A DNA stretch of 64,000 nt from Weissella ceti (GCF_018394055.1 NZ_CP074441.1:496001-560000); one strand, 5' to 3'; positions 18,958-22,674 are shown, counted from the stretch's first letter. Translations and numbers: made by a program. Notes: a model not told the origin generated them from the letters alone.

Positions 18958-18993
18958 ATGAGTACAAATACATGACAACCACAAGATGGCTTC
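18958..18993 (+). other. Permease 5' end with an in-frame opal stop at codon 6
   Basis: The optimal ribosome site AGGAGGG (18944-18950) is followed seven bases later by ATG 18958, in the same frame as the permease. It reads MSTNT, then TGA (18973-18975), then QPQDGF and the Met at 18994. The residues after the stop look like an ordinary MFS cytosolic N terminus, so the true gene start seems to have been cut by a nonsense change. Confidence 0.8.
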
Positions 18994-20166
18994 ATGTTTA
19001 AAGTAGCGATGTTATCAATCGCCTTACTATTACAGATTCCGGCGGTTATTTCACCAACACTACCGTTGATTGGGGCTAGTTTCCCAGAACAAAGTCTGGC
19101 GCAAATCGAAATGATTAGTACTATTTCAAACTTTGGAATTTTGTTGTTTGTTCTATTGAGCGGATTTGTAATTCGTTATTTAGGAACATACAAGACGATT
19201 TTAATTGGATTGATTTTGGCGTTAGTTTCTGGAATCGTGCCAGTGTTTAGTGATAACTACACGGTTATCTTGGTATCACGTTTCTTGTTGGGTGGTGGAA
19301 TTGGATTGTTCAACGGACTTTCATACAGTTTGATTCTTCGTATCTACACTGGGGACACACAGAAGCAATTGCTTGGCTTCCAAGGAGCCGCAGCCACATT
19401 GGGAATGACAGCGTTAACATTCGTTGTTGGTGGTTTGGTTGGATTTGGTTGGCACACGGTATTCTGGGTATACCTAATTGCGCTACTACCATTAGTTTTG
19501 ATCTTGATCTTCGGACCACAAATTGGTCGCTTGGCCGATGCGGCTGAAGGGGTTGATGAACAACCTAAGGTCAAGGAAAAGACAAACTTTGGTGTGATGC
19601 GTTATGGTATCCAAGCCTTTATCGTCTTTACGTTTTTTGCGGCTACACAATTGAAGATTACAAGTGTCTTGACTGATACTGGGTCTGGTGATGCAGCAGT
19701 AGCTGCTTCATTGCTAGGAATTGCAACATTAGTTGGAATCTTGGTTTCAATTGCTTACGGGTCAATTTACAAGCTTTTCAAGCGTTACACGATGACTGCT
19801 GGTTTGATTGGAATGGGAATTGGTTTAGTTCTGATCTCAGTTGGTACTAGTTTGCCAGTGATTGCCCTAGGACAAATCTTGTTGATGGGAACATTTGTTA
19901 TCGTTGCACCAAGTTTGTTTGCAGGAGCGGCTGAAGTACAACCAGAAGGATCTGACAACTTAACATCTATCGTATTGCTTGCCTGGATTAACATTGGTGT
20001 ATTCTTGGCGCCACGTACATTGGCTGCTATTCAAAGCATCTTTAATGTATACGATGCGGGTTCAGCCCAATTCGTCCTACGAATTGGTGGTTTCATCTTA
20101 CTAGCGTTGGCAATTTACCTTGGCGTAAAAACAATGCTGTCTAAGAAGTCTGTAGATAACGCATAA
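18994..20166 (+). CDS. MFS permease, probable beta-glucoside or sugar importer, with disrupted start
   Basis: The open frame from Met 18994 encodes 390 residues with twelve predicted hydrophobic spans. The first helix begins at once (FKVAMLSIALLLQIP), and the loop after helix 2 holds IRYLGTYK. The well-placed start codon at 18958 leads to a TGA six codons later, so protein would need reinitiation at 18994, readthrough, or a revertant; no good ribosome site precedes 18994. All membrane spans would remain in the shorter product. It leads an operon with a ROK kinase and a GH1 hydrolase, so a disaccharide or beta-glucoside cargo is inferred. It may equally be a recent pseudogene. Confidence 0.65.
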   Translation: MFKVAMLSIALLLQIPAVISPTLPLIGASFPEQSLAQIEMISTISNFGILLFVLLSGFVIRYLGTYKTILIGLILALVSGIVPVFSDNYTVILVSRFLLGGGIGLFNGLSYSLILRIYTGDTQKQLLGFQGAAATLGMTALTFVVGGLVGFGWHTVFWVYLIALLPLVLILIFGPQIGRLADAAEGVDEQPKVKEKTNFGVMRYGIQAFIVFTFFAATQLKITSVLTDTGSGDAAVAASLLGIATLVGILVSIAYGSIYKLFKRYTMTAGLIGMGIGLVLISVGTSLPVIALGQILLMGTFVIVAPSLFAGAAEVQPEGSDNLTSIVLLAWINIGVFLAPRTLAAIQSIFNVYDAGSAQFVLRIGGFILLALAIYLGVKTMLSKKSVDNA

Positions 20167-20260
20167 TTAATGAACTAACAGAAATAAAAACAAACAGTGT
20201 TGAGAGTGAATTCTTTCTATAATAAATAAGATATCTCAGGCATTGAAGGGAGACAAAACT

Positions 20261-21166
20261 ATGAGTTTGGATTATCTAGCAATTGATATCGGTGGGACTA
20301 ACCTTAAATACGGAATTGTTAATCGTGCGGGAACATTAATTGAAAAGCACACAACGCCAACTAATGAAGAAAGTTTAGATGCATTTGTTGCCCAATTAAA
20401 GGGTATTGCAGATGAATTTAAGGATCGTATCAAAGGAGTTGGAATCAGTGTCCCAGGTAAGGTCGATCAAAACGATGGTGGAACAATTCACGGTGGTGGA
20501 GTTTTGCAATTCCTTGATGAAGTGAATCTACCAAGACTGCTTGACCTAGACATCCCCGTCGCAGTTGAAAACGATGGAAAGTCAGCGGCATTAGCTGAAC
20601 TTTGGCTAGGAACTTTGAATGGCGTTAAAGATGGCGCTGCCTTAGTACTTGGAACTGGTGTTGGTGGAGGTTTGATCATCAATGGTGAACTATATACGGG
20701 TGGTCATTTCCAAGCTGGTGAAGTAAGTCTAGGGTCTCAAAGTACGTCAATGACCACAGAATCATTGGTTGGCCGTATTGGGAGTGCGGTTATGATGGTT
20801 GAACGTGTGGCAACGGCGTTGGATCTACCTGACAAGCATGATGGTTTGGCCGTATTTGAAGCTATCAATGCGCATGATCCAGTGGCTTGGCCAATCTTTG
20901 AAGCTTACGCTGAGGAAATTGGTTTGATTATCCACAATATTCAAGCCATTATGGATTTGGATCGTTTCGTTATCGGTGGTGGTATTTCTGCCCAACCGAT
21001 TGTGGTTGAAACAATCAATGAAGCGTACATGCGAATTTTCAATACACATTTCGCTATTCGTACGACACTAACACCACCAGAAATTTTGCCTAGTCGTTTT
21101 AAGAACGATGCCAATATGTATGGGGCGGTCTATCGTCTATTGTTAGAAGTGAATCAAGAAGTGTAA
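20261..21166 (+). CDS. ROK family sugar kinase, beta-glucoside-kinase-like
   Basis: This 301-residue kinase has the phosphate loop IDIGGTNLKYG near residue 8, the catalytic Asp in VENDGKSAALAE near 105, and LGTGVGGGLIINGELYTG near 135. The usual ROK zinc motif (CxCGxxGC) and the GH pair after GE are both missing: the segment reads AGEVSLGSQSTSMTTES. ROK members without these, such as BglK, phosphorylate beta-glucosides with ATP, and the downstream gene encodes a phospho-specific GH1 enzyme. Free glucose is the alternative substrate. ATG 20261 follows GAAGGGAG; an upstream TTG at 20243 lies in front of that site. The operon has no PTS gene. Confidence 0.8.
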   Translation: MSLDYLAIDIGGTNLKYGIVNRAGTLIEKHTTPTNEESLDAFVAQLKGIADEFKDRIKGVGISVPGKVDQNDGGTIHGGGVLQFLDEVNLPRLLDLDIPVAVENDGKSAALAELWLGTLNGVKDGAALVLGTGVGGGLIINGELYTGGHFQAGEVSLGSQSTSMTTESLVGRIGSAVMMVERVATALDLPDKHDGLAVFEAINAHDPVAWPIFEAYAEEIGLIIHNIQAIMDLDRFVIGGGISAQPIVVETINEAYMRIFNTHFAIRTTLTPPEILPSRFKNDANMYGAVYRLLLEVNQEV

Positions 21167-21216
21167 ATTACTCGGGATCAAGCATAATGCTAATCAATCA
21201 ATAAAGGAGCTTAACT

Positions 21217-22674
21217 ATGACTTATCAAAAGCAAGTACCAACTGGTTTTCCATCTGATTTTCTATGGGGTGGTGCAACAGCGGCCAACCAAATTGAAGGT
21301 GGCTGGAATGTTGATGGCAAAGGAATTAGTACTGCGGAAGTAATTCCTAAAGCGGAAGGACGTAAGTCTAATCTAGGTAGTGTCACTTTGGAATCAATCC
21401 AAAAAGCGATTGAAGACCCAACTGATGAAAATTACCCTAAGCGTCGTGGAGTTGATTTCTATGATCGTTACGAAGAAGATATTGCGCTTTTGGCAGAACT
21501 TGGTTTGAAGGCATTCCGTTTCTCAATTGGTTGGGCACGTATCTTCCCGGAAGGGACAGAACTAGAACCTAACGAAGCCGGATTAGCTTTCTACGATCGC
21601 ATTTTCGACTTGTTGGAAAAGTACAACATTGAACCAGTCGTGACTCTGTCTCACTACGAAATGCCAATTAACTTGACACTTAAGTACAATGGTTGGTTGA
21701 GTCGTGAAACAATCGAGCACTTCACACGCTTCAGTGAAACAGTCTTCAAGCGTTACCAAAACCGTGTGAAGTACTGGATGACCTTTAACGAAATTAACAC
21801 AGCGCAATGGGGATTCCACACAACTGGGGCCGTAGATTCACACTTGTCACCAGATGAACAATTGCAAGTACGTTACCAATCAGTGCACCACCAATTTGTG
21901 GCGAGTGCGATTGCCGTCAAGCAAATTCACGCCTTGAACCCAGATGCACAAATCGGAATGATGTTGGCTCGTATGCAAACATACCCACTAACACCTAAGC
22001 CAGAAGATGTGCGTGCCGCCCAAAAGAGTGATCAATTGAACTTGTTCTTTGCAGATGTTCAAGTACGTGGAGAATACCCTAACTACATGAACCGTTACTT
22101 TGCAGAACACAATGTGAATATTGAATTCGCGCCAGAAGATGAAGCGCTATTGAAGGAAGGTAAGGTTGATTACCTAAGCTTTAGTTACTACAGCTCAAGT
22201 ACAACGAGTGTGACTAAGGAAGACGTTACAGACGCTAATATGGCGGTTGCTGGGGTTAACTCATACTTGAAGGCATCTGAATGGGGATGGCAAATGGATC
22301 CGATCGGCTTGCGTGTCACTTTGAACATCTTGTGGGATCGTTATGAAGTGCCATTGTTTATCGTTGAAAACGGTTTGGGTGCCGTTGACGAATTAACTGA
22401 CGACAAGCAAGTGCATGATGATTACCGTATTGACTACTTGCGTCAACACGTGCAACAAATGGAAGAAGCGATTAAGGATGGTGTTAACTTGATTGGATAC
22501 ACAATGTGGGCCCCAATCGACATCATTAGTTTCAGTACATCAGAAATGAGTAAGCGTTATGGTTTCATTTACGTTGATCAAGATGATGAAGGAAATGGAA
22601 CGCTTGATCGTTACAAGAAGGATTCATACTTCTGGTACCAAAAGGTGATTGCCTCTAACGGAAAAGAAGTGTAA
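21217..22674 (+). CDS. 6-phospho-beta-glucosidase, glycoside hydrolase family 1
   Basis: This 485-residue GH1 enzyme has the N-terminal [15 protein letters not shown] signature, the acid/base Glu in MTFNEIN near residue 190 and the nucleophile Glu in IVENGLG near 385. The phosphate-binding loop of 6-phospho enzymes is present near residues 440-450: a Ser in [14 protein letters not shown] followed by the KRY lysine and tyrosine. It should release glucose-6-phosphate and glucose or an aglycone from phosphorylated beta-glucosides. AAAGGAGC gives strong initiation. It is last in the operon and ends at a long terminator. Confidence 0.92.

Follow-up and report, generated by a model that had tools for sequence, protein, structure and literature searches.

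A candidate operon for phosphotransferase-independent beta-glucoside use in Weissella ceti

The window analysed here is a 64,000-nucleotide stretch of Weissella ceti DNA (NZ_CP074441.1:496001-560000) with a G+C content of 40%, taken from a genome of one contig and 1,505,791 bases (G000). Four consecutive genes on its + strand encode an AraC-type regulator, a major facilitator superfamily (MFS) carrier, a ROK-family sugar kinase and a glycoside hydrolase family 1 (GH1) enzyme. The last three genes form a catabolite-controlled operon behind the AraC-type regulator, and the regulated unit comprises the operon together with the upstream regulator gene, a catabolite-responsive element (cre box) and a direct repeat. 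The best reading, to which we assign a probability of roughly 0.55, is that this AraC-regulated operon serves the use of beta-glucosides independently of the phosphotransferase system (PTS). Gene calls and Pfam matches bear out the order and strand of the MFS, ROK and GH1 genes given in the initial annotation. The features, numbered from the first letter of the window, are as follows.

17960..18853, + strand: AraC-family regulator with a cupin sensor domain and HTH_18 (Pfam PF02311, PF12833)
18863..18895, + strand: direct repeat GTCATAAAATG x2, period 22 bp, candidate operator for the AraC protein
18911..18924, + strand: cre box TGAAAGCGTTTACA, exact consensus, predicted CcpA site
18958..18975, + strand: ATG served by a Shine-Dalgarno sequence, with an in-frame TGA after 5 codons; probable native MFS start, interrupted (from the sequence)
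18994..20166, + strand: MFS carrier, proposed importer of the unphosphorylated beta-glucoside (PF07690, 78.5 bits)
20261..21166, + strand: ROK sugar kinase lacking the zinc motif, proposed to phosphorylate the imported glucoside at O6 (PF00480, 118.8 bits)
21217..22674, + strand: GH1 6-phospho-beta-glucosidase with S440/K446/Y448 loop, E192 and E384 (PF00232, 453 bits)

In the proposed route the MFS carrier would import the free glucoside, the ROK kinase would transfer a phosphate from ATP to O6 of the glucosyl residue, and the GH1 enzyme, judging from its family, would cleave the 6-phospho-glucoside to glucose 6-phosphate and an aglycone or glucose. The initial annotation had proposed the same succession of import, ATP-dependent phosphorylation and cleavage for a free disaccharide. 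The succession is retained as the best reading, with the ROK protein as the sole adjoining kinase and a strong linkage of MFS and ROK genes in relatives. The free disaccharide is not the only candidate substrate. Plant aryl or terpenyl glucosides would probably be used as well as disaccharides, and they fit the gene sets of the relatives better.

The GH1 enzyme aligns end to end with its closest solved structures, 6wgd, 4ipl and 3qom, and the NCBIfam 6-phospho-beta-glucosidase models score it at 520-590 bits. Both catalytic glutamates are present, E192 as the acid/base in the NEI/NEP motif and E384 as the nucleophile in ENG. The Ser/Lys/Tyr phosphate-binding loop recognized in the initial annotation (loop L8a) is complete, its residues S440, K446 and Y448 being equivalent to Ser432, Lys438 and Tyr440, the phosphate ligands of L. 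plantarum Pbg1 (PMC3605045). True beta-glucosidases carry a phosphomimetic Glu at position 430, as described in the Pbg1 paper (PMC3605045), and this position is a Ser in the window enzyme. On sequence grounds the enzyme should require a 6-phosphorylated substrate. The loop and the homology assign it to the broad phospho-GH1 class and to no narrow subfamily, because it scores below the cut-offs of the narrow NCBIfam GH1 models (PRK09593 and others; best of four, 589.8 versus 639 bits).

The ROK gene most likely starts at ATG 20261. Its product is placed in the family by fold, domain and the DIGGT (DxGxT) and END (catalytic Asp) motifs. The zinc motif CxCGxxGC of glucokinases is absent from the protein, as had been noted, and AGEVSL stands in place of AGExGH, such that the Glu is retained and the Gly and His are lost. 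A ROK protein without the zinc motif can still be a kinase, as is known for other members of the family, including N-acetylmannosamine kinases (NanK) (PMC5458393). By the same token, the likeness to the beta-glucoside kinase BglK that the initial annotation drew from the missing motif did not hold, and the motif was dropped as proof of BglK: its absence is common to NanKs and to a kinase of W. confusa encoded in a glucose-use cluster next to the porter GlcU, and the window protein scores 110.6 bits with the BglK equivalog model NF042998, whose cut-off is 550 bits (relatives, 111-134 bits). The AlphaFold model of the kinase has a predicted local distance difference test score of 87.6, with low confidence in a loop at about residues 153-157. 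Its matches to NanK, to glucokinase, to 4htl and to 2gup, which was solved with sucrose, are of about equal quality (Z scores of about 30), and fold comparison was therefore dropped as a means of calling the substrate. In the ROK tree the window protein falls into a 6-row clade (support 99/96) composed mostly of kinases linked to AraC, MFS and GH1 genes.

The linkage of carrier and kinase was examined in a scan of named genomes. The scan gave 80 loci with a kinase of this subfamily, nearly all from lactic acid bacteria and their kin, and 78 remained after removal of two duplicates from W. confusa. The same kind of MFS gene is located within 3.6 kb of the ROK gene in 36 of the 78. Sorted by distance from ROK, 36 MFS matches lie within 3 kb versus 2 at 3-9 kb, an excess of ~30-fold over the local background. 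GH1 genes are enriched in the first kilobase from ROK, and K-x-Y is retained in every GH1 encoded in a ROK operon of the relatives, most of them without a nearby PTS gene. By the same distance measure, genes of the PTS membrane component EIIC show no enrichment near ROK.

Thirty of the 36 MFS-ROK loci also carry a gene of a trimming type, often directly between MFS and ROK. The types counted were GH78 alpha-L-rhamnosidase, GH51-type alpha-L-arabinofuranosidase, BD-FAE or Abhydrolase_3 esterase, and a DUF5060 protein that resembles a putative glycoside hydrolase of the PDB; as the reference genes came from the same loci, the count is a description of the module and offers no independent test. 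In Lactiplantibacillus fabifermentans and Companilactobacillus kimchii the operon has the order MFS-GH78-ROK. The recurrence of the module contradicts the earlier view of an uncommon route in lactic acid bacteria. As far as gene content can tell, the route appears rarely noticed rather than rare, related gene sets recurring across the group.

PTS phosphorylation of a glucoside requires a free O6 on glucose. Substrates blocked at O6 cannot be phosphorylated in this way, and so would be imported free, trimmed, phosphorylated by the ROK kinase and cleaved inside the cell. In the relatives, a rhamnosidase, arabinofuranosidase or esterase of the same operon would first free O6, which could account for phosphorylation by a cytosolic kinase instead of a membrane-borne PTS. 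In the terpene glycosides of grape, O6 of glucose bears an outer rhamnose, arabinofuranose, xylose or apiose (PMC6155689). Those rhamnosidases of L. plantarum and Pediococcus that are listed in PMC11901676 use 1,6-linked flavonoid glycosides (rutinosides) as substrates, and naringin is little or not attacked by the L. plantarum ones. We infer that the co-occurrence of a trimming enzyme, a kinase and a phospho-enzyme is better accounted for by the need to free O6 than by a glucokinase role. More tentatively, lactic acid bacteria may share an undescribed PTS-free module in which whole glycosides with glucose blocked at O6 (rutinosides and arabinofuranosyl-, apiosyl- or acyl-glucosides) would be imported by a dedicated MFS carrier, stripped at O6 by an enzyme specific to each operon, phosphorylated there by a new zinc-less ROK subfamily and cleaved by the phospho-GH1 with release of the aglycone, with the window operon as its minimal form; this whole reading is possible rather than probable.

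The window operon is without a trimming enzyme. No rhamnosidase was found in the genome, and the BD-FAE-type esterases at 1471836 and 487599 are unlinked to the operon. Since both trimming enzyme and rhamnosidase are missing, a beta-glucoside without substituents is the likelier substrate of the operon itself. The same bare MFS-ROK-GH1 order occurs in W. cibaria (L043/L075). Leuconostoc citreum (L064) has an AraC-MFS-esterase-ROK-GH1 operon plus a PTS gene, and the genes on either side of this stretch enclose nothing but ROK in Leuconostoc miyukkimchii (L076). In Enterococcus (L099, L124 and L128) the module is longer, with an FGGY kinase, a Sde182 nucleoside-hydrolase-like gene and further sugar-metabolism genes preceding MFS-ROK(-GH1).

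The control region lies between the regulator and carrier genes. The cre box is the sole exact + strand match in the window, and the direct repeat, 11 bases long and perfect, occurs once in the 64 kb and in 0 of 100 shuffles. AraC-type genes also adjoin the MFS-ROK module in relatives, and a cre site, exact or with 1 mismatch, is located upstream of the same MFS gene in L040, L043, L064, L071, L077, L078 and L089. As cre precedes MFS in these relatives, carbon-catabolite control appears to be a common trait and a sugar-use operon is likely. Scans for sigma-70 promoters and terminators gave no signal exceeding that of shuffles.

The points that weigh against PTS-independent glucoside use concern the kinase, the relatives, the remainder of the genome and the carrier. 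The BglK and glucokinase models are equally weak for the ROK protein (110.6 and 122.6 bits, both below cut-off). A W. confusa kinase encoded beside GlcU, GalM and Pgi forms the lineage closest to the operon-linked clade. This orthologue, 59% identical to the window protein and likewise zinc-less, lies between the GlcU glucose porter, a mutarotase and phosphoglucose isomerase, a context that points to glucose and constitutes the strongest evidence against the preferred reading. Clusters of this GlcU-ROK-GalM-Pgi type are found at L038, L041 and L065, and in G004 (L063) the ROK gene of such a cluster and its neighbours are fragmented. The substrate-contact residues (N, D and E kept, His lost) are identical in GlcU-linked and GH1-linked kinases, and active-site residues were thus dropped as a discriminator between glucose and glucoside. 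Moreover, a GH1 gene lies within 3.6 kb in only 12 of the 36 MFS-ROK loci; the GH1-less loci are, with the GlcU cluster, a source of doubt.

In an alternative reading the substrate of the ROK kinase would be glucose: the GH1 enzyme would split an imported glucoside, either free or phosphorylated by a PTS encoded elsewhere, and the kinase would phosphorylate the glucose released. The W. confusa cluster agrees with such a role, as do the glucokinase model TIGR00744 being the best NCBIfam match of the kinase and 24 of the 78 relatives having no MFS, trimming-enzyme or GH1 gene nearby. The match to TIGR00744 is nonetheless far below the cut-off of that model (122.6 versus 260 bits) and comes without the zinc motif. 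A second ROK gene elsewhere in the genome encodes a standard zinc-motif glucokinase that exceeds the cut-off (326 bits), so the housekeeping glucokinase role is already covered and the window ROK is a second, divergent sugar kinase. Cleavage of a free glucoside would also be unusual for a GH1 with the phosphate loop and without the phosphomimetic Glu (PMC3605045). We consider a glucose kinase doubtful, with an appreciable chance of being correct.

The statement in the initial annotation that there is no PTS is valid for the operon, in which no PTS gene was found, and not for the genome. The latter holds a PTS with EI, three EIIC proteins, and one EIIB and one EIIA of the lactose/cellobiose type, as well as a second phospho-GH1, which again counts against a PTS-independent route. 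One EIIC gene adjoins the gene of this second GH1, which has the same phosphate loop (L058), another adjoins a MupG-like (MupG/DUF871) gene (L057), and the third belongs to a trehalose-type operon (L059). The sole lactose-type EIIB and EIIA found in the genome are both in the EIIC-MupG operon; the positions concerned are G000:C1 1189942-1192909 and 297617. With one of each found, and both there, they are probably shared by the EIIC encoded next to the second GH1. From this set, a Lac/Cel-type EIIC could supply phospho-glucosides to the window GH1 while the MFS protein exports the aglycone. A precedent exists in L. acidophilus, which exports aglycones and has an EIIC that uses EIIA/EIIB encoded elsewhere (PMC5698550). 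However, one EIIC has its own GH1 and another its MupG/DUF871 partner, the arrangement would leave the ROK kinase without a role, and PTS genes are not enriched near ROK in the relatives; we judge PTS supply improbable.

A ready phosphorylated sugar might also enter through a UhpT-like hexose-6-phosphate:phosphate antiporter encoded at 16106-17539 of the window, which exceeds the cut-off of the UhpT equivalog model NF007107 (679 versus 497 bits). However, UhpT substrates are hexose phosphates and not disaccharide phosphates, this gene is set apart from the regulator gene by a hairpin-like stretch and some 400 bp, and a tblastn survey of the relatives did not reveal it beside ROK. Supply of the GH1 by this antiporter is very improbable. 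The hairpin-like stretch, at about 17580-17617, follows the UhpT-like gene, and a near-cre site is located by the gene at 16050. The window also encodes two LPXTG surface proteins (23034-24881 and 6988-10350); a collagen-binding domain together with acidic repeats is present in one, and long near-identical repeats in the other.

The carrier gene itself contributes the remaining point against the reading, a stop at codon 6. The initial annotation started the gene at 18958, where a good Shine-Dalgarno sequence (AGGAGG) and an ATG are indeed present. The frame, however, reads MSTNT-stop, with TGA 18973-18975 as codon 6, and the intact MFS frame opens at the in-frame ATG 18994, which has no Shine-Dalgarno sequence. 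Because of the AGGAGG, its spacing and the ATG, and because the MFS proteins of relatives begin at a comparable distance ahead of the F-K in helix 1, position 18958 is probably the natural start. The stop may be a mutation, a sequencing error, or a lesion tolerated through restart, and it makes carrier activity in this strain uncertain. Compared with solved structures, the MFS protein gave weak matches to SLC22 carriers and nothing stronger.

The operon may be decaying in this strain, the stop inactivating import and leaving ROK and GH1 as remnants, a view compatible with any mechanism for the intact relatives. The well-served start followed by TGA and the loss of the module in Leuconostoc miyukkimchii are in its favor. 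On the other hand, the stop is in the variable leader before helix 1, restart at ATG 18994 could yield a nearly full-length carrier, the ROK and GH1 genes, the cre box and the regulator are intact, and a sequencing error is possible in this one assembly. Decay is unlikely, though it retains some weight.

If PTS-independent glucoside use by this module is correct, dozens of kinases that at present carry the names glucokinase, NanK or BglK would receive a corrected annotation. How lactic acid bacteria use plant glycosides that carry decorations (rutinosides and the aroma precursors of grape, for example) is of importance to both food and gut microbiology, and a named operon with candidate carrier, kinase and glycosidase makes the question testable. 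A description of an MFS-ROK-GH1 module in lactic acid bacteria was not found in the literature, most subscription papers lying outside the search. The reaction pair of kinase and phospho-glucosidase is already known, and within the literature covered the MFS-ROK module with trimming enzymes was not found described.

The pair is best represented by Klebsiella pneumoniae BglK and its 6-phospho-beta-glucosidase, in which an ATP-dependent beta-glucoside kinase likewise feeds a phospho-glucosidase. Klebsiella BglK has been run with Streptococcus pneumoniae BglA-2 as an in vitro cascade (PMC13264166) and has served to prepare the substrates of L. plantarum Pbg1 (PMC3605045). The window system differs in that its ROK protein scores far below the BglK cut-off, its partner is an MFS carrier, and it is known here from sequence. 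The closest solved sequence to the window ROK is that of Listeria monocytogenes Lmo2764 (4htl), with about 30% identity, the same fold and no zinc motif. The His of ExGH is replaced by Tyr in Lmo2764 and by Leu in the window protein, and the tree places Lmo2764 far away from the window subfamily. Its function is annotation, since the 4htl title gives a putative N-acetylmannosamine kinase and the molecule name a beta-glucoside kinase. The phospho-GH1 enzymes of lactic acid bacteria (Pbg1 3qom, 6wgd and BglA-2 4ipl) share with the window enzyme the phosphate loop, the catalytic residues and full-length similarity, whereas Phe439 of the latter replaces Pbg1 Ala431, as in E. coli BglA, and the enzyme is encoded without a PTS. 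A sugar kinase of Weissella cibaria strain 92 named bglK, 34% identical to Klebsiella BglK, is also encoded beside a glycosidase, in a cluster that differs by including the alpha-xylosidase xylS (PMC7125115). Finally, the L. acidophilus loci for plant glucosides combine a PTS with an intracellular phospho-GH1 that acts on plant glucosides, as proposed here; there, phosphorylation is carried out at the membrane by EII proteins (PMC5698550), in contrast to the cytosolic kinase proposed for the window operon.

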